Part shown: positions 22,574-48,471 of the stretch, piece by piece
Layout: the number at the start of each line of letters is the position of its first letter
Position numbering within the stretch: position 1 is the first letter of the stretch
NCBI GenBank assembly: GCA_025360425.1
Contig: JANYCD010000004.1
Span: 1-48,471, forward strand
DNA: 48,471 nt
Source of the DNA: Sterolibacteriaceae bacterium
GTDB lineage: Bacteria > Pseudomonadota > Gammaproteobacteria > Burkholderiales > Rhodocyclaceae
Direction of reading: 5' to 3'
Position numbers and translations under genes: made by a program
The notes under the pieces: generated by a model
Told to the model about the DNA's origin: nothing
Databases searched by the model: none
The model's input: only the letters and a program-made list of their open reading frames with translations

Positions 22574-22575
22574 TC

Positions 22576-22581
22576 ATTATA
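22576..22581 (-). promoter_or_regulatory. Consensus -10 box for the P450-TetR operon
   Basis: Read on the minus strand this hexamer is TATAAT, an exact -10 consensus, 62 bases before the P450 start codon. The -35 region is not a good match at 16-18 bp spacing, which fits a regulated promoter. Transcription would start around 22569, inside the palindrome. Confidence 0.5.
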
Positions 22582-22659
22582 TCGTAATATCAACACCGAC
22601 ACAGTAGAACGAATTCCGGCGGGCACCACTCACCGGCCATCGTCAATGGAGAGCGCGCG

Positions 22660-24198: not shown

Positions 24199-24255
24199 GA
24201 AAATCGTCAATACGAAAAGTCTGACCCGTAGTTAAAACAATAGGAGGATATTCAA

Positions 24256-25320: not shown

Positions 25321-25351
25321 CGTCTTTCGCATCTCACACCATGGAGCTTCA

Positions 25352-30933: not shown

Positions 30934-32229
30934 ATGAAATCGAGTTTGTTTTACGAACACCAACTTCCCCGCCCCTGGGGCGAGGGTGTCGAAGAAAAGC
31001 TGTTCCACGATGCGCTGACGCAACTCGAACTCGCCGACAAGCTCGGCTTCGACGGCATGTGGGCGGTCGAGCACCATTTCCTTGAAGAGTATTCACATTG
31101 CTCCGCGCCGGAAGTGTTCCTCGCCGCAGTGACCCAGCGCACCAGGAACATGCGCATCGGGCACGGCATTTGTCTCGGCGCGCCTGCCTACAATCATCCG
31201 GCGCGTGTTGCCGAGCGCCTCGCCACGCTCGACATCCTGTCGCGCGGCCGTCTCGAATGGGGCACTGGCGAATCCGCCTCGCTGATCGAGATGCATGGCT
31301 TCGGACTCAACCCCGAGGTCAAGACAGCGATGTGGCTGGAAGGTGTGGAGCAGACCGCCAACATGATGGCGATGACGCCCTATCCTGGCTTTGAGGGGAA
31401 ATATTTTTCGATGCCGACGCGCAACATCGTTCCCAAGCCGGTGCAGGGCCCCAACCCGCCGATGTGGATGGCGTGTTCGCGGCGTGAAAGCATCCTGCGC
31501 GCGGCGCGCCACGGTATGGGCGCGCTGGTGTTCGGTTTTGTGCAGCCGGATCAGGCCAAGGCCTGGGTCGAGGATTATTACGCGGTGATCAAATCCGCGG
31601 AATGCGTTCCGCTCGGCCATACCGTGAACGCCAACTTCGCCACGCTGAACGGCATGATGGTGCATCAAAGCCACGACGAAGCGATCCGCCGTGGCCTCGA
31701 TGGTTTCAAGTTCTTCGGCTATTGCCTGTCGCACTACGTCGTCTATGGCGAGCATTTTCCGGGAGTGACCAATCTCTGGGAAAACTTCCTCAAGGTCAAG
31801 GATTCCATCACCGACATCCCGGGTTCCGACAGCATCGGCACGCCGGATGCGGTGCGCAAGCATCTGAGAGGCTTTGCCGATGCCGGCGTCGACCAGATGA
31901 TTTTCATCCAGCAGGCCGGCAACACGCGGCATGAACATATCTGCGAAGCGATTGAGTTGTTTGCAAAAGAGGTCATCCCCGAACTTCACCAAGGCGAAGA
32001 CAAGCGCCTGAAGCGCAAGGCCGAAGAATTGGCGCCTTACATCGAAGCCGCGCTGGCGCGCAAAAAACGCATGCCCGCACTCAAGCCTGCGCAAGTGAAA
32101 GGAGTCGAAAGCATCGGCCTCGCACTCGAACGCAAGGCCGGCCAGGACTACGCCAAGCAGGGAGGCACCTATGCCGATCCAACCCGCGGCGGCGCAATTC
32201 CAATGGCCAAGCGGGAATTATTCAAATAG
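30934..32229 (+). CDS. LLM class (luciferase-like) flavin monooxygenase
   Basis: A second luciferase-family protein, 431 residues, longer than usual because of a Lys-rich C-terminal extension from about residue 350 (KRLKRKAEELAPYIEAALAR). Core signatures are LADKLGFDGMWAVEHHF with the EHH motif near residue 49, RIGHGICLGAPAYNHPARVAER, and WGTGESASLIEMHGFG. It shares little sequence with the first LLM protein at 24256. GAGGAG precedes the ATG. It is the first gene of a long operon and is directly followed by an amidohydrolase, which hints at a lactone-forming then lactone-opening pair. Confidence 0.85.
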   Translation: MKSSLFYEHQLPRPWGEGVEEKLFHDALTQLELADKLGFDGMWAVEHHFLEEYSHCSAPEVFLAAVTQRTRNMRIGHGICLGAPAYNHPARVAERLATLDILSRGRLEWGTGESASLIEMHGFGLNPEVKTAMWLEGVEQTANMMAMTPYPGFEGKYFSMPTRNIVPKPVQGPNPPMWMACSRRESILRAARHGMGALVFGFVQPDQAKAWVEDYYAVIKSAECVPLGHTVNANFATLNGMMVHQSHDEAIRRGLDGFKFFGYCLSHYVVYGEHFPGVTNLWENFLKVKDSITDIPGSDSIGTPDAVRKHLRGFADAGVDQMIFIQQAGNTRHEHICEAIELFAKEVIPELHQGEDKRLKRKAEELAPYIEAALARKKRMPALKPAQVKGVESIGLALERKAGQDYAKQGGTYADPTRGGAIPMAKRELFK

Positions 32230-32257
32230 CCTCTTTGCATTCCAAAGGGGATTGGAG

Positions 32258-33325
32258 ATGAAACAAAAGCCGGCCTTCGAGGGCAACCAATACCGGACAC
32301 GTGACGATTTGCTGGCGTGGCTGGGGCAAAGCCGCGAGGTACCGATCGAGCCTGATTTCGCTGTCGTCGATGCGCATCACCATTTGTGGAACGACGATCA
32401 CCGCCGTTACCAGATTCCGGATCTGATCGACGATATCGGCGCGATGAATGTCGTCGGCAGCGTATTCATTGAATGCGGCGCCACCTACGACGCCAAGGTC
32501 GACTACAGCGAAGGCGTCGTGGTTCCCCCCGGGATTTACAAACAACCGGTTTCCGAGATCCGCTTCGTCGTGGACGAGGTGCGCAACAGTCAACGCGCCC
32601 AACAACTCGGTCTGTGTAAGGCGATTGTCGGTTTCGGCAACCTGCTGGTGGGTGAAACATCCGCCCGCGACATGCTCGAAACTTTCATCGAAGCCGGCGA
32701 AGGACGCTTTCGCGGCATTCGCCAATCGGCGGCGTGGGAGACGGCGATCGGTGACATGGCGTGGCGCACGCCGCCACCCGGCCTGTATTTCGATGACAGA
32801 TTTCGTTCGGGTTTTCAGGCGCTACAGGCGCTGGGCTTGAGCTTCGATGCCTGGCTCTACTATCCGCAACTCTACGACGTGATCCTGCTGGCCCGACGCT
32901 TCCCCGATGTACCTATCATCCTCGACCACTTCGGCGGCATGGTCGGCATCTTGGAATATGCCGCATGGCCGAAACAGCGCTTCCGCCAATGGTGTGCCTA
33001 CATTCGCGAGTTGGCCCTCTGTCCGAACGTGATCGTGAAAATGGGTGGGTTGGGCATGCCAATGGTTGGTCTGGACATGCATCTTCTGGAATCCCCGGCC
33101 GGATCGGAACAGCTCGCCGCAGCGTGGAAACCCTATATCGACGTTTCGGTGGAAGCCTTTGGCAGCAAGCGCTGCATGATTGGCAGCAACTTTCCGGTAG
33201 ACCGGCAAACGGCGCACTATACGACCGTGTGGAACGCCTACAAGATTGCAACCAAAAACTATTCGCAAGACGAACGGCAAGACCTGTTCAATGGCACCGC
33301 AAGCAGAGTCTACAAGTTGAAATAA
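32258..33325 (+). CDS. Amidohydrolase 2 family protein (possible lactonase)
   Basis: A 355-residue TIM-barrel metal-dependent hydrolase. The first metal motif is DAHHHLWNDD near residue 39. Later conserved pieces are FRGIRQSAAW, the strand-end His in PIILDHFGGM, and the C-terminal GSNFPVDR with the catalytic Asp. This group includes 2-pyrone-4,6-dicarboxylate lactonase and 4-sulfomuconolactone hydrolase, so lactone hydrolysis is possible; decarboxylases of the same fold are the alternative. AAAGGGG precedes the ATG at 32258. It follows the LLM gene after 28 bases in the same operon. Confidence 0.82.
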   Translation: MKQKPAFEGNQYRTRDDLLAWLGQSREVPIEPDFAVVDAHHHLWNDDHRRYQIPDLIDDIGAMNVVGSVFIECGATYDAKVDYSEGVVVPPGIYKQPVSEIRFVVDEVRNSQRAQQLGLCKAIVGFGNLLVGETSARDMLETFIEAGEGRFRGIRQSAAWETAIGDMAWRTPPPGLYFDDRFRSGFQALQALGLSFDAWLYYPQLYDVILLARRFPDVPIILDHFGGMVGILEYAAWPKQRFRQWCAYIRELALCPNVIVKMGGLGMPMVGLDMHLLESPAGSEQLAAAWKPYIDVSVEAFGSKRCMIGSNFPVDRQTAHYTTVWNAYKIATKNYSQDERQDLFNGTASRVYKLK

Positions 33326-33396: not shown

Positions 33397-34260
33397 ATGG
33401 CAGTTGTTTTGGACAGGACTGCGAAGGTGCTCGCCGTTGCGGCGACCGGCGACTATGGCAGCAACCAGATTCGCTTCATGCAGGCGGCCGGTACCCATGT
33501 CGTCGGCGCCGTCGTGCTCGGGCGCGGTGGCGAAACCATGCTCGACCTGCCGATATTCGATACCGTGATGGAGGCGGTGCAAGCCACCGGTGCGAACGCC
33601 GCGATCATCTACGCACCTGCGCTCGGCGTTCGCTCGGCGGTAGTGGAATGCGCCGACGCCGGCTTGGGCCTTGCGGTTGCCGCCGCCGAATTCGTACCGA
33701 CCCACGATGCGCTGTACGCCGCCGCACATGCACGCGAACGCGGCATGGTACTGGTCGGTCCCAACACGATGGGCATGGCAACGCCCGGCCAGGCCATGCT
33801 GGGCGCCGTCACCCCCAGTTTCACCAAGCCCGGCAAAGTCGGCATGATCGGTCGCAGCGGCACCTTGATGCTGGTGATCGCACGCCTGCTATCGCAATCG
33901 GGAATCGGGCAAAGCACGCTGGTCCATGTCGGCGGCGACACGATCGCCGGATCGAATCCGGATGAATGGCTGACGCGCTTCGACACCGATGCCGACACCT
34001 CGGCCGTCATCTTTCTGGGCGAGATCGGCGGCGCCAAGGAATTCGCACTGGCGGAACGGATCAGCGCGAGCAAAAAGCCGGTGGCGGCGATGATCGTGGG
34101 GCGCCATGCGCCGGCCGAAAAGCGCATGGGACATGCCGGCGCGCTGATCGGCAGCGACCGCGAAACCGCCGCTGCCAAACAGGCGGTGTTGAAAGAGGCC
34201 GGGGCGATCATTTGCAATTCGCCCGCGGCGGTCGTTGAATTCGCAATGGCTTATCGATAG
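33397..34260 (+). CDS. CoA-binding protein, succinyl-CoA synthetase alpha-like (SucD-like)
   Basis: A 287-residue protein with the alpha-subunit layout of NDP-forming acyl-CoA synthetases. It has an N-terminal CoA-binding Rossmann domain (AATGDYGSNQIRFMQAAGTHVVG, GANAAIIYAPA) and a ligase domain with GPNTMGMATPG, GMIGRSGTLM and the phospho-His region KRMGHAGALIG. The His in GHAGA matches the phosphorylated His of SucD. The partner beta subunit is at 35099, separated by one crotonase gene. The pair is too diverged, and misplaced, to be the TCA-cycle enzyme. It probably activates or releases a pathway-specific acyl-CoA. Confidence 0.85.
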   Translation: MAVVLDRTAKVLAVAATGDYGSNQIRFMQAAGTHVVGAVVLGRGGETMLDLPIFDTVMEAVQATGANAAIIYAPALGVRSAVVECADAGLGLAVAAAEFVPTHDALYAAAHARERGMVLVGPNTMGMATPGQAMLGAVTPSFTKPGKVGMIGRSGTLMLVIARLLSQSGIGQSTLVHVGGDTIAGSNPDEWLTRFDTDADTSAVIFLGEIGGAKEFALAERISASKKPVAAMIVGRHAPAEKRMGHAGALIGSDRETAAAKQAVLKEAGAIICNSPAAVVEFAMAYR

Positions 34261-34285
34261 TCCGACCTTTGAAGAGGAAACAGCA

Positions 34286-35062
34286 ATGAGCGATCTCGTC
34301 CTGTCCGAAAAGCGCGGCAACGTGCAGTGGCTGACCATCAACCGCCTTGAACGGCGCAATGCGCTGAACCCTGACGTCATGGATGGATTGCGCGAGGGCA
34401 TCATCGCCGCGCGCGACAATCCCGACATCCGCGCCATCGTCATCACCGGCGTCGGCGACAAGGCATTCTGCGCCGGCGCCGACCTGCAGACCAACGCCAC
34501 CACGTTCTCGTTCGACTGCGCCGATCCGCGCCTGCCGTTCGCCAAGCTGACCCGCGTCGTATTCGGCGTGGACATCCCGATCATCGCCCGCGTCAATGGC
34601 GCCTGCATGGCGGGTGGCATGGGCGTCCTTGGCCTGTGCGACCTGGCGGTGGCGAGCGACAACGCCAGGTTCGGCATGCCCGAGGTCAAGGTCGGCCTGT
34701 TCCCGATGATGATCCTGACCACGCTCAAACGCATCATCCCGCCGCGCCAGATGAACGAGCTGTGCATGACCGGCGAAGCCATCAGCGCGGCAGAGGCCTT
34801 GCAAATGGGCCTGCTCAACTACGTCGTGCCGCAGGCCGAGCTCGACACCAAGCTCGACTGGCTGCTCAATCGCATCGTCGACAAATCGCCGACCGCAATA
34901 CGGCGCGGCAAATACGCGATGCGCGCGGTGGAAGATATGACCATCGAGCAGACCATTGCCTTCACCGAAAGCCAGGTGCCGCTCGCCGCCGCGACGCAGG
35001 ATTTCGCCGAAGGCATCGCCGCCTTCAACGAAAAGCGTTCGCCGCTGTGGACCAATCGCTGA
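34286..35062 (+). CDS. Enoyl-CoA hydratase/isomerase family protein
   Basis: A 258-residue crotonase-fold enzyme acting on acyl-CoA thioesters. The oxyanion-hole segments are KAFCAGADLQ and NGACMAGGMGV. One catalytic Glu is kept in FGMPEVKVGLFP, but the first Glu of classical hydratases (normally in GGGxEL) is replaced by Gly in GGMGVLGLCD. So a hydratase with two acids is unlikely, and isomerase, hydrolase or ring-opening chemistry should be considered. GAAGAGGAAA precedes the ATG at 34286. It is inserted between the SucD-like and SucC-like genes, suggesting consecutive steps on the same CoA ester. Confidence 0.87.
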   Translation: MSDLVLSEKRGNVQWLTINRLERRNALNPDVMDGLREGIIAARDNPDIRAIVITGVGDKAFCAGADLQTNATTFSFDCADPRLPFAKLTRVVFGVDIPIIARVNGACMAGGMGVLGLCDLAVASDNARFGMPEVKVGLFPMMILTTLKRIIPPRQMNELCMTGEAISAAEALQMGLLNYVVPQAELDTKLDWLLNRIVDKSPTAIRRGKYAMRAVEDMTIEQTIAFTESQVPLAAATQDFAEGIAAFNEKRSPLWTNR

Positions 35063-35098: not shown

Positions 35099-36256
35099 AT
35101 GCTGGTAATCGAAGCCGAAGCCAAGGCAATGCTGGCGCGGCGGGGCATTGCTACGCCGCAGCCGAGCCGCATCTACACTGGCCACGAACCGGTCGATCCG
35201 CCAGCAACCGCAGTGGCGGTCAAAGCCCAGACCCTGTCAGGCAAGCGCGCCCAGGCCGGGTTGATCGAGCTGACCAGTGGCGACAAAGCTGCCGCGGCAG
35301 TCGCTCGGGTGCACGATGCGATGGTCCGCCTCGGCCAGACGCCGGTGGTGCTGGTGGAAGCGCAGGCCGATATCGACGCCGAGTACTACCTGGCGTGGCG
35401 CATCGACGACTTGCAGCACAAATACGTGATGATGTTTTCGATCGCGGGCGGCTCGGACATAGAGGAGCGTGGCGATACTATCCAGCAGTATTTCCATTCG
35501 CCGTTGCAAAATTTGCAGCCCTATCATCTGGCGCCGACATTGGCAGCATGCGGTGTGCCGTCAGGCAATATCGGCGCGGTGGCGCGCTTTGCCGTTTCGC
35601 TGTTCGAGGCATACCGCGACGAGGACGCGGTGTTGCTCGAAATCAATCCGCTGGTCGTAACCAAAAAAGGTCGGGTCATGGCGGTGGACGCCAAGCTGAT
35701 TCTCGATGACAACGCGGAAAAGCGGCATCTGGATTGGACAAAACTTATTTCCGCTTCGCTGCAAGCGCAGGAAGAATCCGCGCTGGAAAAAACCGCGGCT
35801 GAGGCTGGCCTGACTTTCGTCGAACTCGACGGCCCGGTGGCGGTGTACTCCGCCGGAGCTGGCATGGGCATGTGCCTGCTCGACATGCTCGCGGATGCCG
35901 GCATGCCGGCGGCGAACTTCAGCGATGCCTCGGGTGGCAGCAGCAAGGAAACATTCGCCCGCGTCGGACAGGTGGTGTTCGAGCTCGCCAAACAGCCCAA
36001 GGTCAAGGCGATCGTGATTTTCTTCGTGCTGTCGGCGACATCGCTCAAGAGCGTCGTCGATGGAATTCTGCATTTGATCGACACCGCTCCGCCGCCAAAG
36101 CCGCTGGTGGTGGGACTGATCGCAGCCGGCGCGGCGGAACGGGAATTGACCCTCAAGGATGCACAGGCCTTGATACGCGGGCGGGGTTTTAAATGCGTCG
36201 CCGATCTGGCGGATGCGGTCGACGCGGTGCGCGGTTTTGTGACAGGCAAGGAATGA
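35099..36256 (+). CDS. ATP-grasp acyl-CoA synthetase beta subunit (SucC-like)
   Basis: A 385-residue beta-type subunit. The ATP-grasp domain covers about residues 1-225: it starts LVIEAEAKAMLARRGIATP, has the Lys in VAVKAQTLSGKRAQAG and the Mg-binding LLEINPLVVTKKGRVMAVDAKL. The flavodoxin-like CoA-ligase domain follows (GPVAVYSAGAGMGMCLLDML, FSDASGGSSKETFAR). It matches the SucD-like protein at 33397 as the second half of an ADP-forming acyl-CoA synthetase. It overlaps the AtuA-like gene by an ATGA. The substrate acid is not known. Confidence 0.87.
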   Translation: MLVIEAEAKAMLARRGIATPQPSRIYTGHEPVDPPATAVAVKAQTLSGKRAQAGLIELTSGDKAAAAVARVHDAMVRLGQTPVVLVEAQADIDAEYYLAWRIDDLQHKYVMMFSIAGGSDIEERGDTIQQYFHSPLQNLQPYHLAPTLAACGVPSGNIGAVARFAVSLFEAYRDEDAVLLEINPLVVTKKGRVMAVDAKLILDDNAEKRHLDWTKLISASLQAQEESALEKTAAEAGLTFVELDGPVAVYSAGAGMGMCLLDMLADAGMPAANFSDASGGSSKETFARVGQVVFELAKQPKVKAIVIFFVLSATSLKSVVDGILHLIDTAPPPKPLVVGLIAAGAAERELTLKDAQALIRGRGFKCVADLADAVDAVRGFVTGKE

Positions 36257-38073
36257 AAAAGAACATGGCTGTAAAAACCATTCGAATCGGCGGCGGCGCG
36301 GCGTTCTGGGGTGACAGCAACGCTGCGCTCAAGCAGCTCATCGTCGGGCCCAAACTCGACTACCTGATGCTGGAATACCTGGCCGAGATCACCATGGCCC
36401 TGCTGGCGCGCACCCGGCAGAAATCGGAAGAAGCCGGCTACGTGCCGGATTTCATCAGCGCCGTTGGCGCGCATCTGCAAGAGATCAAGGCGCAGGGCAT
36501 CAAAGTCATCACCAACGCCGGCGGCATGAACCCCGCCGCCTGCGCCCGCGCCTTGCGCAAGGTCGCCGAGGAAAAGGGAATCTCGCTGTGCATCGCGATC
36601 GTGGAAGGCGACGATCTGGTCGCCCGCGCCGAAGAGTTTCGTGGCAAAGGCATCAGCGACTGGCGCACCAATGCGCCACTGCCGCCCGTCGATAAGCTGC
36701 TCAGCATGAACGCGTATCTCGGCGCGACACCGATTGCCGACGCACTGGCCGCCGGTGCCGAAGTGGTGATCACCGGCCGCTCTGTGGACAGCGCGCTGGT
36801 GCTGGGCCCGCTGATGCACGAATTCGGCTGGAAGACCGATGATTTCGATCTGCTCGCCGCCGGTAGCCTGGCCGGCCATTTGATCGAATGCGGGCCGCAG
36901 ATGACCGGCGGCAACTTCACCGACTGGGAGAGCATTCCCGGCTGGGACAACATCGGTTATCCGGTCGCCGATTGCAGTGCGGACGGAACCTTCGTGGTCA
37001 CCAAGCCCGAGGGCACGGGCGGCGTGGTGTCGCCGCAGACTGTGGGCGAACAACTGCTTTATGAGATCGACGATCCCGCCAGCTATCTCTTACCCGACGT
37101 GATTGTCGATCTGCGCAGCGTGACATTGACGCAGGTTGGCGCTGATCGCGTGCTGGTACAGGGTGTGCGCGGCCGGCCACCGAGCAATGCTTACAAGACG
37201 ACCGTCACCTGTGCTGGCGGCTATCGCTCGACAGCGGTGTTCATGATCGGCGGCATTGATGCGGCGGCGAAGGCGCGCAAGACCGCGCAGGCCATCGTGG
37301 CGAAGTGCCGCCGCTTATTCAGCGAAAGCAGTCTGGATGATTTCAGCGAGGTCAGCGTCGAAGTGCTGGGCGCCGAAGCGATCTATGGCGACCATGCCCG
37401 CGCCGACGCCACGCGCGAGGTGATGGTGAAGATCGCGGTCAGGCACGCCAGCAAGAACGCGCTCGAATTATTCACCAAGGAAATCGCGCCGGCCTCGATC
37501 GGCATGGCGCCGGGCATCACCGGATTTTACGCGGGCCGACCGACCGTCACGCCGGTGATTATCGGGAGCAGTGTGCTGATTCTCAAGAGCGATGTGCCGG
37601 TGCGGGTTGCGCTCGATGAGCGCGAGATTTTTTCCGGACCGATTCCATCTTCGGCACCCGCGGCCAAGGCGGCGGCGCTGCCGCAGATCGAAGCTGCTGA
37701 TCCCGGCAAGGACAGTGTCACCGTCCCGTTGGTGGCGATTGCCCATGCGCGCAGCGGCGACAAGGGTGACGATGGCCTGATCGCAGTGCTGGCGCGCAAG
37801 CCGGAATATCTGCCCTACATCGCCTGCGCCGTTTCGGCAGAAGCGGTAGCCGAACGGTTCAAGCATTTCCTGCGCGGCAATGTCGTCCGTCATGATGTAC
37901 CGGGCACGCATGCCTTCATCTTCGAACTGCGCAATTCACTGGGCGGCGGCGGGCTGGCCTCGCTACGCATTGATCCGCAGGGCAAGACCTTCGGTCAGAT
38001 CCTGCTCGAAGCGCCCGTCGCGGTACCGGCGGCGATGGCGGCGCGCGACAAGCTGACGGCGGTAACCGAATAA
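36253..38073 (+). CDS. AtuA / DUF1446 family protein
   Basis: A 606-residue protein. The DUF1446 (acyclic terpene utilisation AtuA) region covers about residues 5-450: IRIGGGAAFWGDSN, KVITNAGGMNPAACARAL, VVITGRSVDSALVLGPLMHEFGW (shown in parts), FDLLAAGSLAGHLIECGPQ and MTGGNFTDW. A C-terminal ferredoxin-fold AtuA domain spans about 505-600 (VPLVAIAHARSGDKGDD, GLASLRIDPQGKT). AtuA proteins occur in citronellol/geraniol catabolism and many CoA-based degradation operons; the reaction is not settled. The usual companions, geranyl-CoA carboxylase subunits, are absent here. Confidence 0.88.
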   Translation: MKKNMAVKTIRIGGGAAFWGDSNAALKQLIVGPKLDYLMLEYLAEITMALLARTRQKSEEAGYVPDFISAVGAHLQEIKAQGIKVITNAGGMNPAACARALRKVAEEKGISLCIAIVEGDDLVARAEEFRGKGISDWRTNAPLPPVDKLLSMNAYLGATPIADALAAGAEVVITGRSVDSALVLGPLMHEFGWKTDDFDLLAAGSLAGHLIECGPQMTGGNFTDWESIPGWDNIGYPVADCSADGTFVVTKPEGTGGVVSPQTVGEQLLYEIDDPASYLLPDVIVDLRSVTLTQVGADRVLVQGVRGRPPSNAYKTTVTCAGGYRSTAVFMIGGIDAAAKARKTAQAIVAKCRRLFSESSLDDFSEVSVEVLGAEAIYGDHARADATREVMVKIAVRHASKNALELFTKEIAPASIGMAPGITGFYAGRPTVTPVIIGSSVLILKSDVPVRVALDEREIFSGPIPSSAPAAKAAALPQIEAADPGKDSVTVPLVAIAHARSGDKGDDGLIAVLARKPEYLPYIACAVSAEAVAERFKHFLRGNVVRHDVPGTHAFIFELRNSLGGGGLASLRIDPQGKTFGQILLEAPVAVPAAMAARDKLTAVTE

Positions 38074-38098: not shown

Positions 38099-39265
38099 AT
38101 GGCATTGCGCATGACACCGGAGCTGCAGCAAATCAAGGATGCCGTGGAGGACATCTGCAATCGCTACGACGACAAGTATTGGCTGACCCTCGATCGCGAG
38201 CATCGCTTCCCCGATGAGTTTCGCACCGCGATGGCGCAGGCTGGCTGGCTCGGCATCACCATGCCGGAGCAGTACGGCGGCTCCGGACTTGGCATCACCG
38301 AGGCCGCGCTGATGATGCAGACGGTGGGAAACTCGGCCGGAGTGTTCGCTGCGTGCTCGTCAATACACGTCAATGTTTTTGCGCCGCATTCGATTGTGGT
38401 GCACGGCACCGAGGAGCAGAAGAAACGCATGCTGCCACCGCTCATCGCCGGCACCGACAAGACCTGCTTCGGCGTGACGGAACCCGACGCCGGGCTCGAC
38501 ACGACACACATCACCACGCGCGCCGTCAAAAAAGGCGACCGCTACATCATCAATGGACAGAAGGTGTGGACCACCACCGCGCAATCGGCCAACAAGATCA
38601 TGCTGATCACGCGCACCACGCCGATCGAGGAGTGCAAACGCCCGACCGACGGCATGACCCTGTTCTACACCGATCTAAATCGCGACTATGTACAAGTCAC
38701 CGAAATCGAAAAGATGGGGCGCGCCGCAGTCGATTCGAATTCGGTATTCATTGAGGATCTGCCGGTGCCGGAAAACGATCGCGTCGGTGCGGAGGGTGCG
38801 GGTTTCAAGATATTGCTCGACAGCATCAATCCGGAACGCATCCTGGTCGCGGCAGAAGCCGTTGGCATCGGTCGCCGGGCGTTGGGCAAAGCCGTCGCTT
38901 ATGCCGGCGAGCGCATAGTATTCGGCCGGCCGATCGGCAAGAACCAATCCATCCAGCATCCGCTGGCCGAAAGTTGGATGGAACTTGAAGCCGCCGACCT
39001 GATGGTGTGGGAAGCGGCGCGTCAGCATGATGCGGGTGAGCCCTGCGGCGCCTATGCCAATGCTTCCAAGTATCTGGCGGCGGAGGCGGCCTTCACCGCC
39101 TGCGACCGCGCCGTGCGCGTGCATGGCGGCATGGGCTATGCCAAGGAATTCCATGTCGAACGCTATTTCCGCGAATGCCTGCTGCCGCGCATGGGCCCGG
39201 TCACGCGCGAACTGATGCTGTGCTACATCGCGGAACGCGTGCTGGGCCTGCCGAAATCCTATTGA
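38099..39265 (+). CDS. Acyl-CoA dehydrogenase family protein
   Basis: FAD enzyme of 388 residues that normally introduces an alpha,beta double bond into acyl-CoA. FAD and substrate motifs are TCFGVTEPDAGLDTTHITTRA near residues 120-141, YIINGQKVWTT, and VHGGMGYAKEFHVERYFRE. The canonical C-terminal Glu (YEGT in medium- and short-chain enzymes) is replaced: that stretch reads RMGPVTREL. A Glu is present in INPERILVA on the helix where isovaleryl- and long-chain enzymes keep their base, which would suit branched or cyclic acyl groups. GGAGG precedes the ATG. A role beside the LvaA-like kinase is also possible. Confidence 0.88.
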   Translation: MALRMTPELQQIKDAVEDICNRYDDKYWLTLDREHRFPDEFRTAMAQAGWLGITMPEQYGGSGLGITEAALMMQTVGNSAGVFAACSSIHVNVFAPHSIVVHGTEEQKKRMLPPLIAGTDKTCFGVTEPDAGLDTTHITTRAVKKGDRYIINGQKVWTTTAQSANKIMLITRTTPIEECKRPTDGMTLFYTDLNRDYVQVTEIEKMGRAAVDSNSVFIEDLPVPENDRVGAEGAGFKILLDSINPERILVAAEAVGIGRRALGKAVAYAGERIVFGRPIGKNQSIQHPLAESWMELEAADLMVWEAARQHDAGEPCGAYANASKYLAAEAAFTACDRAVRVHGGMGYAKEFHVERYFRECLLPRMGPVTRELMLCYIAERVLGLPKSY

Positions 39266-39288: not shown

Positions 39289-40182
39289 ATGAAACAAAGC
39301 AAGAAGTTAATTGGCGGGCTTTCAGTCGTTATGTTCGCTCTTGGACTCGCCGGCATGGCGCTGGCAGATCAAGCTGAACTTCAGCCAGCCCCGTCAGTTG
39401 AACCTCCAGGCGGGGCAACCTTGGCTGCCAATGTGACATTTGTATCCCAATACGTCGCACGCGGATTCCAGCAAACCTGGGGCAAGCCTGCATTGCAAGG
39501 CAGTCTTACCTATACTGAACCGAGCGGCTTTTTCGTTGGTACCTGGATGTCATCAGTAAGCCCGAAACTCATTCAAGATGGGCATGTGGAGGTGGATCTC
39601 TATGCCGGATACGGTGGGTCCGTGGCCGATGTTTCGTACCTGGTCCAGCCCTACTATTACCTGTATCCAGGGGCCGAACTGAAGCCCGCCTCATACACTG
39701 GTTTCACCCGAAAAACAAAGTATGACTATGGCGAGTTGCTCCTTGGTATGACATGGCAGTGGCTCAACATCAATTATTGGTACACCTATACAAGGGATTA
39801 TTTTGGTTACAACAGCGATACTGTCTTTTGTAACTCGGTACCTGACCTTGGCTGTGCTGGCACGGACCTTCATAGCAAGGGGTCTGGCTACCTCGAAGCC
39901 AATGTCAACTACAAGTTCGGCAGCGGTTACGGTCTATTGTTCCATTACGGCCATCAGCGTATCAAGAACTTTTCCAAGTTGAATTTTTCCGATGTTAAAG
40001 TTGGTCTAACCAAGACTTTCGATAAAGGCTGGAGTGTCGGCGTTAATTACACGCATCTGGTAAAGGTCTACAAGCCTTTCTATAAAGGCAGTCCTGATCC
40101 GTTTCCCTCTCTGACGGGTGATGGCTCTGCATCAAGTCCTGCAGATGACCAGTTCTTTGTGACCGTTGGTTACGATTTCTGA
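39289..40182 (+). CDS. TorF family putative outer-membrane protein
   Basis: A 297-residue exported protein: signal peptide LSVVMFALGLAGMALADQAE, then the family-typical NVTFVSQYVARGFQQTWGKPALQG at about residues 48-72, repeated amphipathic strands rich in Tyr and Trp, and a C-terminal strand ending in Phe (FFVTVGYDF), the signal for outer-membrane insertion. This matches TIGR02001/TorF-type proteins. In this cluster it may let a hydrophobic substrate cross the outer membrane. Its base composition looks more AT-rich than the flanking genes, suggesting a separate origin. It lies 23 bases after the acyl-CoA dehydrogenase gene. Confidence 0.82.
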   Translation: MKQSKKLIGGLSVVMFALGLAGMALADQAELQPAPSVEPPGGATLAANVTFVSQYVARGFQQTWGKPALQGSLTYTEPSGFFVGTWMSSVSPKLIQDGHVEVDLYAGYGGSVADVSYLVQPYYYLYPGAELKPASYTGFTRKTKYDYGELLLGMTWQWLNINYWYTYTRDYFGYNSDTVFCNSVPDLGCAGTDLHSKGSGYLEANVNYKFGSGYGLLFHYGHQRIKNFSKLNFSDVKVGLTKTFDKGWSVGVNYTHLVKVYKPFYKGSPDPFPSLTGDGSASSPADDQFFVTVGYDF

Positions 40183-40415
40183 ACGTTTTGCATGGGCAAT
40201 CCGGCATTTTTTGGCGCTAAAGGGAGCAGAGTAATTTGATATTTGAAAAAATCACTCCGCTCATATAACCGCTTTCGGAAATTCGATAGGTACGCATCCC
40301 AAACCGGTCATTCCCGCGGATACCTCTTCGGGCACGAGAGCGGGAACAAAGACGCTGGATTCCGGCTTGCGCTGCGCGCGGCCGGAATGACGATAACCAT
40401 CAGAAGGAGAACAAA
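40183..40415. repeat. Non-coding gap with a degenerate dispersed repeat (40307-40391)
   Basis: No gene is seen in this 233-bp gap. Bases 40307-40314 (GTCATTCC) and 40384-40391 (GGAATGAC) form an exact inverted pair that bounds GCGGGAA- and CTGGATTCC-like pieces. This is the layout of the GTCATTCCCGCG...GCGGGAATGAC intergenic repeats common in Betaproteobacteria, here partly decayed. It separates the porin-like gene from the oxocamphor-hydrolase-like gene, and could end one transcript or mark an insertion boundary. The last 25 bases hold the AGAAGGAG site of the next gene. Confidence 0.65.
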
Positions 40416-41315
40416 ATGCCACCCGTCAAAACACTACCCGGCATGCCGGCGCTGCCCAAGCTGGCCGACTATGCGGAAAAGTATCGCGACATCTTCACCT
40501 TCGAGCGCAGCGACAGCGGCGTGCTGCTGGTGAAGTGGCACGAAAACGGCGACACCGCGCCGTGGACCCTGGTGATGCATCGCTCGATTCCCGAGATGCT
40601 GAAGGAAGCCGGGCGCGATGTGGAAAACGAAGTCTTTATCCTCGGCGGCACCGGCGATGATTTTTTCAGGCACCAGAAGATTCCGCCGCTGCCACTCAAT
40701 ACCGACATCGCCGCCCTTACCGGCTTCACCAACCAGCCGGCGCAGGAGGAAATCTGCAACGACCCCGACAGCCTGTTCTGGCTGTCCTATGAGCACATCT
40801 ACTACGACGGTTGCCGCATGGTCGAATCCATCGTCAACGACATTGAGGTACCGACCATCGGCGTGCTCAACGGCTCCGGCATCCACACCGAAATCGCGTT
40901 ACTGTGCGACATCACGTTGATGGCGGAAGAAGCGACCATCGCCGATCCGCACATGAATCTCAACTGGGCCGCGGGCGACGGCATCCAGGTCGCGTTCCGC
41001 ATGGCGATGGGCTACAAGCGCTCCAACTATGCCTTGCTGACCGGCCAGGAGATCGACGCCCAGACGGCGCTCGACTGGGGCATGGTCAACGAGGTGCTGC
41101 CCAGGGACAAGATCTACGCCCGCGCCCGCGAGCTTGGCGAAAGCTTCGCCACCCGCAACCGCATCCTGCGCCGGGTCAACACACAGATCCTGCGCGGACC
41201 GCTCAAAAAAATGGTACAGGAGGTGCGCGGCTCGCTCGGTTCGGAAATGTTTGCCACCATGGCCGCGCACAACCAGCACTTCGGCAAGTGGCCCGGCAAG
41301 GAAAGCAAAAACTAA
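40416..41315 (+). CDS. 6-oxocamphor hydrolase-like beta-diketone hydrolase (crotonase fold)
   Basis: A 299-residue crotonase-superfamily protein resembling Rhodococcus 6-oxocamphor hydrolase, which opens a cyclic beta-diketone by retro-Claisen hydrolysis without CoA. Blocks in common are DYAEKYRDI near residue 18, GVLLVKWHENGDTAPWT, LLTGQEIDAQTALDWGMVNE and LRRVNTQILRGPLKKM. The catalytic residues align: His157 (GIHTEI), His179 (DPHMN) and Asp188 (AAGDGIQ), with nearly the same spacing as His122/His145/Asp154. It is about 40 residues longer, mostly an insert around residues 88-125. It is followed by ferredoxin, P450cam-like and SDR genes, exactly the enzymes that would make a beta-diketone. 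Confidence 0.83.
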   Translation: MPPVKTLPGMPALPKLADYAEKYRDIFTFERSDSGVLLVKWHENGDTAPWTLVMHRSIPEMLKEAGRDVENEVFILGGTGDDFFRHQKIPPLPLNTDIAALTGFTNQPAQEEICNDPDSLFWLSYEHIYYDGCRMVESIVNDIEVPTIGVLNGSGIHTEIALLCDITLMAEEATIADPHMNLNWAAGDGIQVAFRMAMGYKRSNYALLTGQEIDAQTALDWGMVNEVLPRDKIYARARELGESFATRNRILRRVNTQILRGPLKKMVQEVRGSLGSEMFATMAAHNQHFGKWPGKESKN

Positions 41316-41317
41316 AC

Positions 41318-41638
41318 ATGGTCTGGATCAATTTCACCCAGGCGAATAGCGCAACCCATCGCGTGAATGCATGCGGCGGCCTGTCGCTGATGGAAGCTGC
41401 GGTCAGCCACGGCATCGAAGGCGTCGAGGCTGCGTGTGGCGGATCGCGCTCCTGCGGAACCTGCCATGTATATATCGACGATGCGTGGCTCGCCGTGGTG
41501 GGCGCGCCGGGCAATGACGAAAACGACCTGCTTGCCGAATCCGGCGTGCAACGACCCAATTCGCGTCTGTCCTGCCAGATCAGCGTTTGCGAAGCACTTG
41601 CGGAAATGAAAGTCATCGTTCCGTCACCATCCGCTTGA
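41318..41638 (+). CDS. [2Fe-2S] ferredoxin, putidaredoxin type
   Basis: A 106-residue electron carrier with the putidaredoxin pattern: ACGGSRSCGTCHVYIDDAW gives C-x5-C-x2-C, and RLSCQISV the fourth ligand. NACGGLSLMEAAVSHGIEGV replaces the usual N-terminal part. It begins two bases after the oxocamphor-hydrolase-like stop and ends 31 bases before the P450 start, so it is the obvious redox partner of that P450. The GTCHVYID block is close to the GS(A/C)xCATCHVYV of true putidaredoxin. A ferredoxin reductase gene is not seen anywhere in the window. Confidence 0.94.
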   Translation: MVWINFTQANSATHRVNACGGLSLMEAAVSHGIEGVEAACGGSRSCGTCHVYIDDAWLAVVGAPGNDENDLLAESGVQRPNSRLSCQISVCEALAEMKVIVPSPSA

Positions 41639-41669
41639 CGCTTTGCAGCGTACAACCACGAGGCCCCCC

Positions 41670-42899
41670 ATGCAAACCGCCACCGCCATTGAGCATCCCA
41701 GCCACGTAGCGCCGGATCGGGTCATCGACTTTGATGTGTACCAGCCCATGCATGACGGCCTCGGTTTCCACGAGTCGTGGAAAGCGCTGCAGGATTCGGG
41801 GTTGCCCGACGTGTTGTGGACGCCGCAAAACGGCGGCCACTGGCTGGTAATCCGCGGCAAGTTGATCAGCCAGGTATTGGCCGACTACGCCAACTTTTCC
41901 AGCCACACCATCCTCGTGCCCAAGGATACCGCCGGCGTCGCTTATCGCGTCATCCCGATCTCACTTGACCCGCCGGAGCACCGCCCTTTCCGCAACCTGC
42001 TCAACGATGATCTGTCGCCAAAAAGAATCCGCTCCGTCGAAGACTCGATTCGTGAAATCGCGGTGGACCTGATTGAAGCGTTTCGCAGCAAGGGCCAGTG
42101 CAATTTTGTGACCGAATTCGCCGAACAATTGCCGATCCGCGTTTTCATGAAAATGGTGAACCTGCCGCTTGAGGATGTGCCAAAGCTGAAATACCTGGTC
42201 GACCAGTTCACCCGTCCCGACGGCAAGCTGACCTACGCCGAAGTCACCCGCCTGTTCCTCGACTATCTTGAGCCGGTGATCGAAGAGCGGCGCGGCAAGG
42301 AGGGCAAGGACATGATCAGCCGCATGCTCCAGAGCAAGATCGGAGATCGCTTTATGACGGATGCCGAAGCGGCCAACTTGTGCATCCAGGTGCTGGTTGG
42401 CGGGCTGGATACGGTCATCAACTTCCTCAGCTTCGTCATGGTGTTTCTCGCGCGCAACCCGGAAACCCGGCACATTCTGGAAAAGTCTCCGGACAGGATT
42501 CCGTCCGCCATCAATGAGCTGTTGCGGCGTTTTCCGCTGATCACGGTGGGCCGCGAAATAACCCATGACATGAATTTCGAAGGCGTCCATCTGAAGCAGG
42601 GCGAGATGATCATGCTGCCGACGATATTGCACGGGCTGGACGAACAGGAAAACGCGGATTCAATGTCGGTCGATTTCGACCGTACCACGATCCGCCACTC
42701 GACCTTCGGCAGCGGACCGCACACTTGTCCCGGCGCATTTCTGGCGCGCACCGAGGTGCGCCTCATGCTGGAAGAATGGCTCTCCCGCATCCCGGACTTC
42801 AACATCGCGGCGGAGTCCGAGGTTGGGTACACTGGCGGCATCGTCGCCGCCGTCAAACCCTTTTCACTTGCCTGGGATGCTTCCACCACGCGCGCATAA
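41670..42899 (+). CDS. Cytochrome P450, P450cam (CYP101)-like
   Basis: A 409-residue P450 that aligns with P450cam over its full length: NGGHWLVIRGKLI, IPISLDPPEHRPFR, KSKGQCNF-like SKGQCNFVTEFAEQLPIRVFM, LKYLVDQFTRPDGKLT, VGGLDTVINFLSF, and heme loop FGSGPHTCPGAFLAR (Cys about 353). Tyr92 sits where P450cam has Tyr96, which hydrogen-bonds the camphor carbonyl. The Asp-Thr pair (about 247-248), the Thr185 counterpart and the Arg binding a heme propionate are also kept. Phe87, Thr101, Leu244 and Asp297 counterparts differ (Leu, Ile, Gln, Val). So a related ketone or a different position on it is expected. ATG 41670 has ACGAGG upstream. Confidence 0.94.
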   Translation: MQTATAIEHPSHVAPDRVIDFDVYQPMHDGLGFHESWKALQDSGLPDVLWTPQNGGHWLVIRGKLISQVLADYANFSSHTILVPKDTAGVAYRVIPISLDPPEHRPFRNLLNDDLSPKRIRSVEDSIREIAVDLIEAFRSKGQCNFVTEFAEQLPIRVFMKMVNLPLEDVPKLKYLVDQFTRPDGKLTYAEVTRLFLDYLEPVIEERRGKEGKDMISRMLQSKIGDRFMTDAEAANLCIQVLVGGLDTVINFLSFVMVFLARNPETRHILEKSPDRIPSAINELLRRFPLITVGREITHDMNFEGVHLKQGEMIMLPTILHGLDEQENADSMSVDFDRTTIRHSTFGSGPHTCPGAFLARTEVRLMLEEWLSRIPDFNIAAESEVGYTGGIVAAVKPFSLAWDASTTRA

Positions 42900-42938
42900 C
42901 CAGCATTTCGGATCAATCAAACAACAACGGAGGCAAAA

Positions 42939-43676
42939 ATGACAGGACGTTTGCAAGGCAAGGTTGCGGTGATTACGGGTGCGGGCTCGGGCATGGGCGC
43001 CGCGATGGTTGAACGTTTCTGTCGCGAAGGCGCCAGGGTGATTGCCGCCGATATCTCCGGCCAGCAGAACGCGGTCGCCAAATCCATGGGTGATGCGTGT
43101 CTTCCACTACAGGTGGACACCGCAAAAAGCGAAGACATCCGGCGCATGCTCGATACTGCGGTCTCGCATTTCGGCCGGTTGGACATTCTTTGCAACAATG
43201 CCGCAGTGGCCGGAGAACTGGGCAAGACCGGCGACTACAGCGAGGAAGAGTTCGATCGGGTTTGGGCGATCAATGGTCGCGGCGTATTTTTGGGCATGCG
43301 CTACGCCATTCCCCTGCTGCTGAAGAACGGCGGCGGAGCGATCGTGAATACGGTGTCCATTGGGGCCCTGGTCGCGTTTCCGACGATGCCGGCCTACTGC
43401 GCGGCAAAAGGCGCTGTGCTGATGCTGACCAAAACCGCCGCCGTGGAATATGCGGCACAAAATATTCGCATCAACGCAATTTGCCCGGGCACGGTGAAGA
43501 CAGGCCTGAGCATGGGGATGCCCAAGGAATATATCGACATGGCGTTGCAGGGGATGCCAATGGGGCGCCTCGGCTTGCCTTCGGAAATCGCAGATATCGC
43601 GCTCTTCCTCGCCAGCGACGAGTCATCCTTCATGACCGGTGCGGCGGTGGTCGCCGATGGTGGATACATCGCTTAG
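42939..43676 (+). CDS. SDR family NAD(P)-dependent oxidoreductase
   Basis: A 245-residue classical short-chain dehydrogenase: TGAGSGMGAAM cofactor loop near residue 14, AADIS after beta-2 (NAD-type), CNNAAVAGE, catalytic Ser in NTVSIGALV and Tyr-x3-Lys in AYCAAKGAVLM, then NAICPGTVKTGL. GGAGG precedes the ATG. Placed 39 bases after the P450cam-like gene, it is well suited to oxidise the P450's alcohol product to a ketone, as the Pseudomonas camphor pathway does with CamD. CamD itself is a zinc-type dehydrogenase, so this would be a non-homologous replacement. Confidence 0.92.
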   Translation: MTGRLQGKVAVITGAGSGMGAAMVERFCREGARVIAADISGQQNAVAKSMGDACLPLQVDTAKSEDIRRMLDTAVSHFGRLDILCNNAAVAGELGKTGDYSEEEFDRVWAINGRGVFLGMRYAIPLLLKNGGGAIVNTVSIGALVAFPTMPAYCAAKGAVLMLTKTAAVEYAAQNIRINAICPGTVKTGLSMGMPKEYIDMALQGMPMGRLGLPSEIADIALFLASDESSFMTGAAVVADGGYIA

Positions 43677-43754: not shown

Positions 43755-44417
43755 ATGACCTTTACCTTGATCAATGCCCGCCCCAGCCCCTTCGGCCGCA
43801 AGGTCGCCATCGCCCTGATCGAAAAGGGGATCGAATACAAGGTCCAGTATGACGTGCCATGGGGCGATCAGACTTGCACGCCTGAATATAGTCCGCTTGA
43901 ACAGTTGCCGATTCTGGTCGAGGAAGATGGCAACTGCATTTACGACTCGGTCTATATCCTCGAATGGCTCGAACGGCGCTTTCCCAAACCGGCGCTGCTG
44001 CCGACCGACACGGATGCCTTGCTCGAAGCCAAGTTGCGCCAGTTGCTCGGCGAACGGCTGATGGAAGTTTTTCAATCCATCATCATGGAAAATCACCGAC
44101 CAGAACCCAGCGCCCCCTGGATCGACCGGCAGGAGCGCAAGGTCAAGGGCGTATTGACTGAGCTGGAGCGCATGGTCAAAGATCGCGTCATCGTCGATGA
44201 CCGGCCCATCGATCATGGCGACATCGCGATCGCTACCACGCTCCTGCTTTGCGAGTTCCTCGTTCCCGCCGGATATTGCCCCGACATCGACATCCTGCGC
44301 TGGCGCGGACATTACCCGAACGTGGCGCGCTATGTGGATGCCCTGGCAGCACGGCCTTCATTCGTTGCGACCGTACCTCAAGAAATGGATGTCAACCTGT
44401 CGGCAACCATGACTTAG
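43755..44417 (+). CDS. Glutathione S-transferase family protein
   Basis: A 220-residue GST: thioredoxin-like N-terminal domain with INARPSPFGRKVAIALIEKG, the cis-Pro in LEQLPILVEEDG, and DSVYILEWLERRFP (the glutathione gamma-Glu contact). An all-helical C-terminal domain contains IDHGDIAIATTLL near residue 155, the N-capping box. The Ser in SPFGRK is the likely activating residue. It could conjugate a reactive epoxide or enone intermediate, or act as an isomerase, within the catabolic operon. It is separated by 78 bases from the SDR gene and has AGGAG at a fair distance. Confidence 0.88.
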   Translation: MTFTLINARPSPFGRKVAIALIEKGIEYKVQYDVPWGDQTCTPEYSPLEQLPILVEEDGNCIYDSVYILEWLERRFPKPALLPTDTDALLEAKLRQLLGERLMEVFQSIIMENHRPEPSAPWIDRQERKVKGVLTELERMVKDRVIVDDRPIDHGDIAIATTLLLCEFLVPAGYCPDIDILRWRGHYPNVARYVDALAARPSFVATVPQEMDVNLSATMT

Positions 44418-44465: not shown

Positions 44466-44939
44466 ATGCCCGAAATCGATCATGATTTTTTGCTGCAGGA
44501 GGCAAGGATCAGGCAGGTCCTGATTCGCTACGCCACGGTGATTGACGAGCGAAAGCCGGCAGGGCTGGCCGACGTGTTTACGCCGGAGGGCGTTGCCGAG
44601 TACCGCGGACTCGGCAGCTTCCATGGCAGAAAGGCAATCATCGATGTGGTTGAGAGCTTCCTCGGTTCCGTTGGCCGGACCCAACACATGGTGACCAATT
44701 TCCGGATCACCCTGAATGGCGATGAGGCCAGCGCCAAATGCTACCTGCAGGCCACCCATGCCGGCAGCGGCGTCCATGAAGGCAAGACGATGACCGTTTG
44801 GGGTGAATACACGGACAAGCTGAAATTGTGCCCCGAGGGTTGGCGTATCTCGCATCGCGAACTGGTCGCCTTCCATGTGGCAGGCGATATTGGCGTTGCC
44901 TACAAGGGCAAGAGCTATTCGGCAGGCGCCGTGGTCTGA
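44466..44939 (+). CDS. SnoaL-like / NTF2-fold protein
   Basis: A 157-residue protein of the nuclear transport factor 2 fold. The N-terminal helix and loop EARIRQVLIRYATVIDERKP begin it, followed by FTPEGVAEYRGLGSFHGRKAI and the sheet QHMVTNFRITLNGDEASAKCYLQ. The C-terminal RISHRELVAFHV is typical of SnoaL_4 proteins. Family members include ketosteroid isomerases, ring cyclases and limonene-epoxide hydrolases, so isomerisation or hydration of a terpenoid intermediate is possible. Catalytic residues cannot be assigned. GGAGGAA stands in front of the ATG. It is followed by the DDN-like gene. Confidence 0.8.
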   Translation: MPEIDHDFLLQEARIRQVLIRYATVIDERKPAGLADVFTPEGVAEYRGLGSFHGRKAIIDVVESFLGSVGRTQHMVTNFRITLNGDEASAKCYLQATHAGSGVHEGKTMTVWGEYTDKLKLCPEGWRISHRELVAFHVAGDIGVAYKGKSYSAGAVV

Positions 44940-44979
44940 TCAGCAGAACATTCATTACCAACATCAGAGGAGGGCTCAG

Positions 44980-45489
44980 ATGGCCAATGATCAACTCAAG
45001 GAATATCTCGGCACCGATACCAAGGTGAACGAGCTGAAGGCCGTGCCGGATGTGGTGATGGAGACGTTGAATGCGCATCTCGAGCTCTACCGCACGGATC
45101 CGGAAGCCGCCCATTGGTGGGATCCGATCGTGATCGGTGCCCCCGGCGGCCCGGTCAAGACCCTGATGCTGACCTATATCGGCCGCAAATCGGGGAAGAC
45201 CCGGCAGACCGCCCTGCAATATTTTGAACTCGACGGCAAGATCGCGGTGGTCGGTTCACGCGGCGGAACCGAGGATCATCCGTTGTGGTATCTGAACCTC
45301 CTCGCCCAACCGCAATGCGAGATTCAGGTCGGCAAAAACGCCTATCGCGCAACCGCCCGCACCATCGAGGGCCCGGACCGGGACACATGGTGGAAGGTCA
45401 TCCTCGTAGACCAACCCATTCAAGCCGTCTATCAGGCCAGGACCGCGCGCTTGATTCCGGTGGTCGTCATGGACATCATCAAGGACTAA
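44980..45489 (+). CDS. DDN-like (deazaflavin/F420-dependent) nitroreductase-family protein
   Basis: A 169-residue protein of the split-barrel family containing mycobacterial Ddn and other F420H2-dependent reductases. The family blocks are LTYIGRKSGKTRQTALQYF near residue 65, VVGSRGGTEDHPLWYLNLLAQPQ near 88, and the beta strand IQVGKNAYRATART. The GRKSG and HP-W-Y residues form the deazaflavin site in the family. Whether this bacterium makes F420 cannot be seen here; some homologues may use other flavins. GAGGAGGG is in front of the ATG. It is the last gene of the long operon that starts at 30934. Confidence 0.82.
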   Translation: MANDQLKEYLGTDTKVNELKAVPDVVMETLNAHLELYRTDPEAAHWWDPIVIGAPGGPVKTLMLTYIGRKSGKTRQTALQYFELDGKIAVVGSRGGTEDHPLWYLNLLAQPQCEIQVGKNAYRATARTIEGPDRDTWWKVILVDQPIQAVYQARTARLIPVVVMDIIKD

Positions 45490-48087: not shown

Positions 48088-48471
48088 CTACCGCAGCGTC
48101 TCGCCGTACAGCGCCAGGATGCGCTCCCAATGTTTCTCCGAAGCCGGCTTGTCGTAGATCGGCAGGCCGCACATGGCGAAGCCATGGGTGGCCCCAGGGT
48201 AGTCTTCCATCTGGTACTTGACGCCTTTGGCTTCGAAGGTTTGCTTCAGGGTCTGGGTTTCGCCTTCGAACAGCCATGGGTCAATGCCGGCGACGCCGAC
48301 ATAGATTTTGGCCTTCATTTTTCCCGCCAGCAGATGCGGGCTGTCGGGCTGGTCGGTGGCGAGTCTGGCGCCATGGATGGAAGCTGCCGCTGCAACACGA
48401 TCCGGGTAGGTGCCGGCGGCGCGCAGCGACATGCTGCCGCCCATGCAGTAGCCGACGGTGCCGATCTTGGG
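48088..48471 (-). CDS. Dienelactone hydrolase family protein (partial, 5' end beyond the window)
   Basis: The visible 127 residues are the C-terminal half of an alpha/beta hydrolase. The nucleophile elbow GYCMGGSM carries a Cys, as in dienelactone hydrolase. The His is in DYPGATHGFAMCG, and the Asp lies in GVAGIDPWLF or close to it. The enzyme would open an unsaturated lactone or thiol-ester-like substrate. The gene starts outside the window to the right, so its full length and start are unknown. It precedes the third P450 in the same direction, consistent with the catabolic theme. Confidence 0.85.
   Translation of the reverse strand, partial: PKIGTVGYCMGGSMSLRAAGTYPDRVAAAASIHGARLATDQPDSPHLLAGKMKAKIYVGVAGIDPWLFEGETQTLKQTFEAKGVKYQMEDYPGATHGFAMCGLPIYDKPASEKHWERILALYGETLR

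Follow-up and report, generated by a model that had tools for sequence, protein, structure and literature searches.

A possible retro-Claisen catabolic module pairing a CYP101J-like P450 with a divergent 6-oxocamphor-hydrolase-like protein in a probable Betaproteobacterium

The stretch of DNA analysed here (the window; 48,471 nt) is contig C60 of a genome assembly of 2.47 Mb that is 83.8% complete. Towards its end, four neighbouring genes on one strand encode a 6-oxocamphor-hydrolase-like protein of the crotonase fold (OCH1), a ferredoxin, a CYP101-family cytochrome P450 and a short-chain dehydrogenase/reductase (SDR). The best single reading of this block, which we hold with a little less than even confidence, is that it may serve the catabolism of a bicyclic terpenoid-like substrate, with hydroxylation and oxidation followed by a proposed retro-Claisen cleavage of the ring. 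An earlier note on this DNA had described four adjacent same-strand genes at 40416–43676, and this arrangement was borne out in coordinates and order and is not ascribable to chance. The genes are separated by 2 bp (OCH1 to ferredoxin), 31 bp (ferredoxin to P450) and 39 bp (P450 to SDR).

40416–41315, + strand: OCH1, 6-oxocamphor-hydrolase-like crotonase-fold protein; W50, H55, H157, H179, D188 and E277, from sequence and predicted fold
41318–41638, + strand: [2Fe-2S] ferredoxin of the terpredoxin/putidaredoxin type; Fer2 domain, Cys motif
41670–42899, + strand: CYP101-family P450, nearest to CYP101J2 (ATG at 41670, a TTG at 41643 being a possible start); Pfam and search of PDB relatives
42939–43676, + strand: SDR dehydrogenase; Pfam adh_short_C2, E = 1e-65

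Active site and predicted fold of OCH1

Among proteins of solved structure, the best relative of OCH1 is 6-oxocamphor hydrolase (OCH; PDB 1o8u, 1szo; E = 1.8e-34), which we take to be of Rhodococcus origin, and the second best is the Anabaena beta-diketone hydrolase (ABDH; alr4455, 2j5g/2j5s; E = 1.4e-31). The first plain enoyl-CoA hydratase (ECH) appears at E = 1.1e-18, and the others are weaker. When OCH1 is aligned with OCH and with 28 proteins of the loci described below, its residues W50, H55, H157, H179, D188 and E277 correspond to W40, H45, H122, H145, D154 and E244, a set taken as the active site of OCH. All six OCH residues have counterparts in OCH1, and the His/His/Asp at 157/179/188 aligns with H122/H145/D154 as had been claimed. 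In a second alignment, OCH1 keeps six of the six residues and each of seven ordinary crotonases of the same genome keeps none; the genome has eight weaker crotonase matches, and all but one on contig C25 served as these controls. For E277, the correspondence comes from the multiple alignments and is borne out where the fold alignment ends (285 to 252). An ungapped phmmer alignment had suggested that OCH1 lacks E244 and carries Phe instead, a reading that neither the multiple alignments nor the fold comparison upheld.

The structural model of OCH1 predicted by AlphaFold2 (pLDDT 87.3) can be superimposed on OCH, a comparison that the earlier note had proposed as a check. OCH (1o8u) is the best fold match, with a Z score of 33.9 and a root-mean-square deviation of 1.5 Å over 244 residues, followed by ABDH (Z = 33.0) and the best CoA hydratase (Z = 28.7). 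OCH1 differs from OCH in about 25 extra residues between H55 and H157, the least sure part of the model. ABDH has Phe where OCH and OCH1 carry Trp, as read from two alignment fragments. By active-site residues and predicted fold, OCH1 is a putative member of the 6-oxocamphor hydrolase/beta-diketone hydrolase family. That it is instead an ordinary ECH or isomerase is very improbable: Pfam places OCH1 in ECH_1 above the cut-off, but the NCBIfam ECH models match it far below theirs, none of the seven controls has any of the six residues, and the fold match is 5 Z units better to OCH.

The P450 and its redox partners

CYP families are named by a rule of >40% identity, and the window P450, 52% identical to CYP101J2 (a 1,8-cineole hydroxylase) and 49% to P450cam, belongs by this rule to the CYP101 family, slightly nearer to CYP101J2. 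The likeness to P450cam that had been proposed runs along the protein (residues 11–418 against P450cam 7–413, E = 8.2e-132), and CYP101J2 of Sphingobium yanoikuyae (5kyo) scores better (E = 1.9e-147). Of 18 pocket and core positions compared, the window P450 has the residue of P450cam at 9 and that of CYP101J2 at 11, the two extra agreements being Leu for P450cam F87 and Gln for L244. The camphor contacts of P450cam, which we take to be F87, Y96, L244 and D297, correspond to Leu, Tyr, Gln and Val in the window P450; with one of the four kept, it lacks the contact set of this camphor 5-monooxygenase. At the protein level, CYP101J2 shares Leu/Tyr/Gln at P450cam positions 87/96/244 with the window P450, and the two differ at positions 98, 101, 181, 184, 193, 295 and 297.

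The pathway to which P450cam (CYP101A1) belongs, the CAM pathway of Pseudomonas putida, employs luciferase-family monooxygenases. It resembles the window in also having a putidaredoxin-type ferredoxin, a dehydrogenase and a CoA ligase step. Its C5 hydroxylation followed by a Baeyer-Villiger-like oxidation (PMC4097962) is unlike the route proposed here.

The Tyr at position 92, numbered from the ATG at 41670, is indeed equivalent to P450cam Tyr96; the same Tyr is present in CYP101J2 as well, so its conservation in all three proteins does not single out the carbonyl substrate that had been read from it. Work on CYP101D5 ties the orientation of the Tyr96 loop to the preference for camphor or ionone (PMC9655578). 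CYP101J2 hydroxylates 1,8-cineole beside a methyl-bearing quaternary bridgehead (PMC5598857), which is the kind of position that a retro-Claisen route needs.

The ferredoxin has a C-x5-C-x2-C...C motif starting from Cys40, and its nearest solved relatives are the ferredoxin 3hui, terpredoxin and, further down, putidaredoxin; it is, by sequence, a putidaredoxin-type P450 ferredoxin, as suggested earlier. One gene of the ferredoxin-reductase type (Reductase_C) lies on contig C53, unlinked to the window. The assignment of the fourth gene as an SDR also stands, and its product is 56% identical to the SDR of a P450/OCH cluster on a Rhodococcus plasmid, 59% to an SDR on contig C82 and 65% to one on contig C13 of the same genome.

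Related gene sets in the genome and upstream of OCH1

A search of the genome with OCH1 gave one other strong match, OCH2 on contig C82 (E = 3e-26; the next match, E = 4.8e-7). OCH2 is 62% identical to OCH, keeps six of the six residues, has OCH as its best PDB match (E = 4.7e-102) and groups with OCH in a 6-row clade (100/99); as judged by sequence, it is the true OCH relative of this genome. OCH2 starts 4 bp after a P450 gene, and the combination of P450, SDR and OCH recurs on C82. With 13 P450 open frames in the 2.47-Mb genome, rough arithmetic puts the chance of meeting a P450 no more than 1 kb from any one gene at about 2%. The P450 preceding OCH2 is 64% identical to a second P450 of the window (P450b), which is itself 30% identical to the CYP101J-like P450 and lies downstream of the block with the following genes.

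43755–44417, + strand: glutathione S-transferase-like protein; Pfam GST_N_2/GST_C_2
44466–44939, + strand: SnoaL_4 domain protein; Pfam, E = 2.9e-31
44875–45489, + strand: deazaflavin-dependent nitroreductase family protein; Pfam F420H2_quin_red, TIGR00026
46790–48055, − strand: P450b; Pfam, start inferred from the translation

The C82 genes resemble the P450/OCH cluster of plasmid pR8L1 of Rhodococcus sp. 008, in which 10 of the 15 tested proteins have a counterpart on C82: acyl-CoA dehydrogenase (ACAD) at 72% identity, thiolase 64%, ECH 63%, P450 61%, SDR 59%, OCH 58%, MaoC 57%, a small ferredoxin 56% over 54 residues, zinc ribbon 52% and TetR 43%. Among the remaining proteins, an AMP-ligase is at 36%, a second SDR at 42% to the same C82 SDR and a second ECH at 27%; a second TetR and a hypothetical protein of the pR8L1 cluster had no C82 match. 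Gene order is only partly the same, and C82 has additional genes in between. A description of the two clusters as orthologous gene for gene was rejected on these counts. Most of the content of the Rhodococcus-type cluster is found on C82, and it is there, on the evidence of these comparisons, that the organism has its clearer set of P450, SDR and OCH genes. Of the window proteins, only the SDR (56%) and P450b (54–55%) exceed 50% identity to pR8L1 proteins; OCH1 shares no more than 35% identity with the pR8L1 OCH, and the CYP101J-like P450 33% with the pR8L1 P450.

Contig C13 (2194–12157) carries a P450b-like P450 (56%), SDRs that include the 65% relative of the window SDR, a Rieske oxygenase, a SnoaL protein and an FMO-like flavoprotein, and is possibly a Baeyer-Villiger counterpart. 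Window, C82 and C13 together give this genome a pair of P450/OCH sets and, in addition, a single set of the P450/FMO-like kind. The C13 genes bear on the alternative that the P450 hydroxylates 1,8-cineole or a similar compound, that the ketone is cleaved by Baeyer-Villiger oxidation and that OCH1 acts elsewhere. We regard this as unlikely. It would agree with the nearness of the P450 to CYP101J2, including Leu 87 and Gln 244, and with a known cineole route, which employs a 6-oxocineole monooxygenase (PMC4097962). FMO-like genes give five matches in the genome, the C13 gene among them, but none is on the window contig, where the linked ring-cleaving candidate is OCH1. The absence of a linked FMO-like gene is weakened by two luciferase-like window proteins, which could still be Baeyer-Villiger enzymes.

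Upstream of OCH1, on the same strand, lies a run of genes for CoA-dependent metabolism, followed by a porin gene. The closest relative of OCH1 (83%) is encoded in a 16.9-kb stretch of a Sphingomonadaceae metagenome-assembled genome (MAG), locus L017, and the identities below refer to this locus.

30934–32229, + strand: luciferase-like flavin monooxygenase, first of the run; Bac_luciferase, E = 2.1e-43; best PDB match 7bip, E = 1.3e-22; 77% over 282 residues, the L017 gene being cut by the end of the stretch
32171–33325, + strand: Amidohydrolase_2 family enzyme; Pfam, E = 3.1e-30; 57%
33397–34260, + strand: acyl-CoA ligase, CoA-binding (alpha-like) subunit; Succ_CoA_lig, CoA_binding, Ligase_CoA; 72%
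34235–35062, + strand: ordinary ECH, a negative control; ECH_1, E = 5.7e-58; 0 of 6 OCH residues; 71%
35099–36256, + strand: acyl-CoA ligase, ATP-grasp (beta-like) subunit; ATP-grasp_2, E = 1.1e-19; 66%
36256–38073, + strand: AtuA family protein (acyclic terpene utilisation family, a putative role here); AtuA, E = 1.8e-146; 69%
38099–39265, + strand: ACAD; Pfam; 88%
39289–40182, + strand: putative porin of the TorF family, between the CoA genes and OCH1; Gcw_chp, TIGR02001; no L017 match

The luciferase-like protein matches 7bip and luciferases, and no entry named diketocamphane monooxygenase is among its 21 PDB matches. The earlier note had left the upstream CoA genes out of account, and they are the neighbourhood that OCH1 keeps in its sole close relative: in L017, the seven genes of the run and then the OCH1 relative are contiguous and in the window order, at 57–88% identity.

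This conservation supports another alternative, namely that OCH1 serves the upstream CoA genes by opening their cyclic beta-diketone, free or CoA-linked, and that the ferredoxin, P450 and SDR belong to another pathway and merely lie behind it. Such an arrangement is a substantial possibility, if a less probable one than joint use of the four genes. The L017 run has no P450, and the porin gene and a 233-bp gap that separate the CoA run from OCH1 in the window are what a later insertion could give. Against it, only 2 bp lie between OCH1 and the ferredoxin gene, so that here OCH1 and the P450 set form a single gene run, and OCH2 of the same genome also lies directly behind a P450. Joint use of OCH1 with the window P450 is our inference from the gene arrangement.

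A scan of 40100–40480, ahead of OCH1, found no promoter or terminator, and RNA folding of 40280–40400 is no better than that of shuffled sequences (z = −0.31). The intergenic stretch at 40307–40400, GTCATTCCCGC ... GGAATGAC, is repeat-like; an 11-mer of it occurs once in the window, and a related 13-mer occurs four times in the genome, with none for the reversed control.

The proposed route and the distribution of OCH1-like genes

In the route that we favour, the CYP101J-like P450 would hydroxylate a carbon beside a quaternary bridgehead that has a carbonyl, present already or formed later, on its other side, with electrons supplied by the adjacent ferredoxin and probably drawn from the unlinked C53 reductase. 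The SDR would oxidise the alcohol to a ketone, giving a non-enolisable cyclic beta-diketone that OCH1 would cleave by retro-Claisen hydrolysis. Specifically, H179 and D188 would activate water, while H157 and W50 would hold the carbonyls, roles assigned by analogy with OCH. The two-part ligase may then activate the resulting keto acid as its CoA thioester, which the proteins of the upstream run (ACAD, hydratase, luciferase-like monooxygenase and AtuA) would take further. Among known enzymes, that of Rhodococcus opens a camphor-derived ring by retro-Claisen cleavage. A literature search found no paper combining retro-Claisen cleavage, P450 and crotonase, and its 6-oxocamphor hydrolase terms matched only work on asymmetric-catalyst efficiency.

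A number of observations weigh against this route. P450cam-type 5-exo hydroxylation would not yield a beta-diketone. OCH1 is 35% identical to OCH, and in the tree it falls with its L017 relative in a 10-row clade (100/100) outside the 12-row OCH/ABDH clade (95/93), in which ABDH groups with OCH and others; the tree does not settle which clade is nearest to which. The OCH-type active site and fold proposed for OCH1 hold, but by identity and clade it is not an orthologue of OCH. Nothing in the 16.9 kb of L017, where the OCH1 relative follows the ACAD gene, matches a P450 or a ferredoxin, so the link between OCH1 and the CoA genes is seen twice (window and L017) and that between OCH1 and a P450 once. 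A P450 stands beside an OCH1-clade gene in one of the five loci at 41% identity or more, and in one of the nine loci of the 10-row clade, in both cases the window. The clade loci without a P450 are L017, L018, L019 (5.5 kb), L048 (which reaches a contig end), L020, L083, L084 and L085. Among the 24 OCH-family loci examined, the window included, five have a P450 in the stretch, at most 6 kb away (the window, L047 on C82, L088, L093 and L097), and among plasmid loci the figure is three of eight (L114 on pR8L1, L115 and L120). The P450 and OCH genes of pR8L1 are 5 kb apart, compared with adjacent genes on C82. Three plasmids (L117, L118 and L121) have OCH-like genes near xanthine-dehydrogenase-type molybdenum hydroxylases and no P450, and in L120 a molybdopterin oxidoreductase adjoins the OCH gene. 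L116 and L119 have neither P450 nor xanthine-dehydrogenase-type genes. These varied neighbours indicate that OCH-type hydrolases accompany several kinds of oxidising enzymes. The hybrid of a P450 and an oxocamphor-hydrolase-like enzyme foreseen in the earlier note gains from the recurrence on C82 and loses from the rarity of a P450 link within the OCH1 clade itself.

The 24-locus count leaves out L090, L094 and L100 (best match an ordinary ECH), L096, L098 and L099 (which fall among the ECH controls and have no H122) and L021–L023 (Flavonifractor-type, like L020). The Nocardia loci L024–L032 and the weak loci L033–L040 were left out unaligned, L024, L026 and L033–L035 among them matching best as ECH. 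The plasmid neighbourhoods are those of 8 of the 61 records with an OCH2 match.

The OCH1 clade is, by sequence comparison, rare and set apart from the characterised OCH and ABDH. A search of genome contigs with OCH1 gave 24 loci. At E = 1e-20, the OCH1 query had matches in 6 of 150 relatives, counting the window genome. In the family to which the L017 genome belongs, 17 of 298 genomes had a match, that genome being one of them. At E = 1e-40, it matched one of 369 class genomes and one of 398 phylum genomes, in both cases the window's own. Plasmids gave 33 records at no more than 40% identity. OCH1, unlike OCH, is linked to a CYP101J-like P450 and to CoA genes, and no second gene run of CYP101J and OCH1 was found in the loci examined. 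CYP101-like P450s at 50% and 47% identity to the window P450 are encoded elsewhere in the L017 genome.

Among the plasmids, pl1 of the Betaproteobacterium Paraburkholderia sprentiae WSM5005 (L115) has a P450, a ferredoxin, an FAD-dependent oxidoreductase and an OCH gene together. There, a P450, a GMC oxidoreductase and OCH stand in a row, with the GMC gene between, and the P450 of this row shares 24% identity with the window P450. At a distance of 4 kb past OCH comes a CYP101-like P450 (36% identity to the window P450, 40% to P450cam), and another (44%) is about 33 kb off. Flavonifractor and its relatives (L020–L023) have two OCH-like genes in tandem, and both L020 copies keep the His/His/Asp.

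Elsewhere in the window, the region 19057–28852 encodes a UbiD decarboxylase, a TetR regulator, a third P450 (21288–22514), a luciferase-like protein, an APH family protein and an SMP-30 lactonase, and is perhaps another catabolic island. An open frame at the window end (48088–48444) presumably resembles the C-terminal part of dienelactone hydrolase.

The host is probably a Betaproteobacterium, as had been thought, and the sequence support for this is weak. Across the seven genomes compared, a helicase (5518–7500) shares 59% identity with its counterpart in a Lautropia MAG (Burkholderiales), 51% with the one in Marinobacter, 43% with that of the L018 genome and 41% with that of the L017 genome. 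Speaking against the assignment, the match to a MAG labelled Betaproteobacteria (L034) is only 43% over partial length. No 16S rRNA gene was found in the genome. Provided that both bins are clean, the presence of the 83% relative of OCH1 in a MAG of the Sphingomonadaceae suggests that the gene passed between classes.

Taken together, the window and C82 would give a probable Betaproteobacterium two P450/OCH-type modules, one like that of the Rhodococcus plasmid and one that joins a CYP101J-like P450 to a rare OCH clade. We tentatively propose, at somewhat under even confidence, that the latter may represent a second retro-Claisen route beside the Rhodococcus-type one, in which a CYP101J-type P450 would lead to a diketone, a divergent OCH clade would cleave it and a CoA set with AtuA and a two-part ligase would receive the product. 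If this is true, the route would open the ring after CYP101 hydroxylation without oxygen, in place of a Baeyer-Villiger reaction, would offer new enzymes for chiral keto acid production and would point to a catabolic gene set common to Actinomycetota and Betaproteobacteria.

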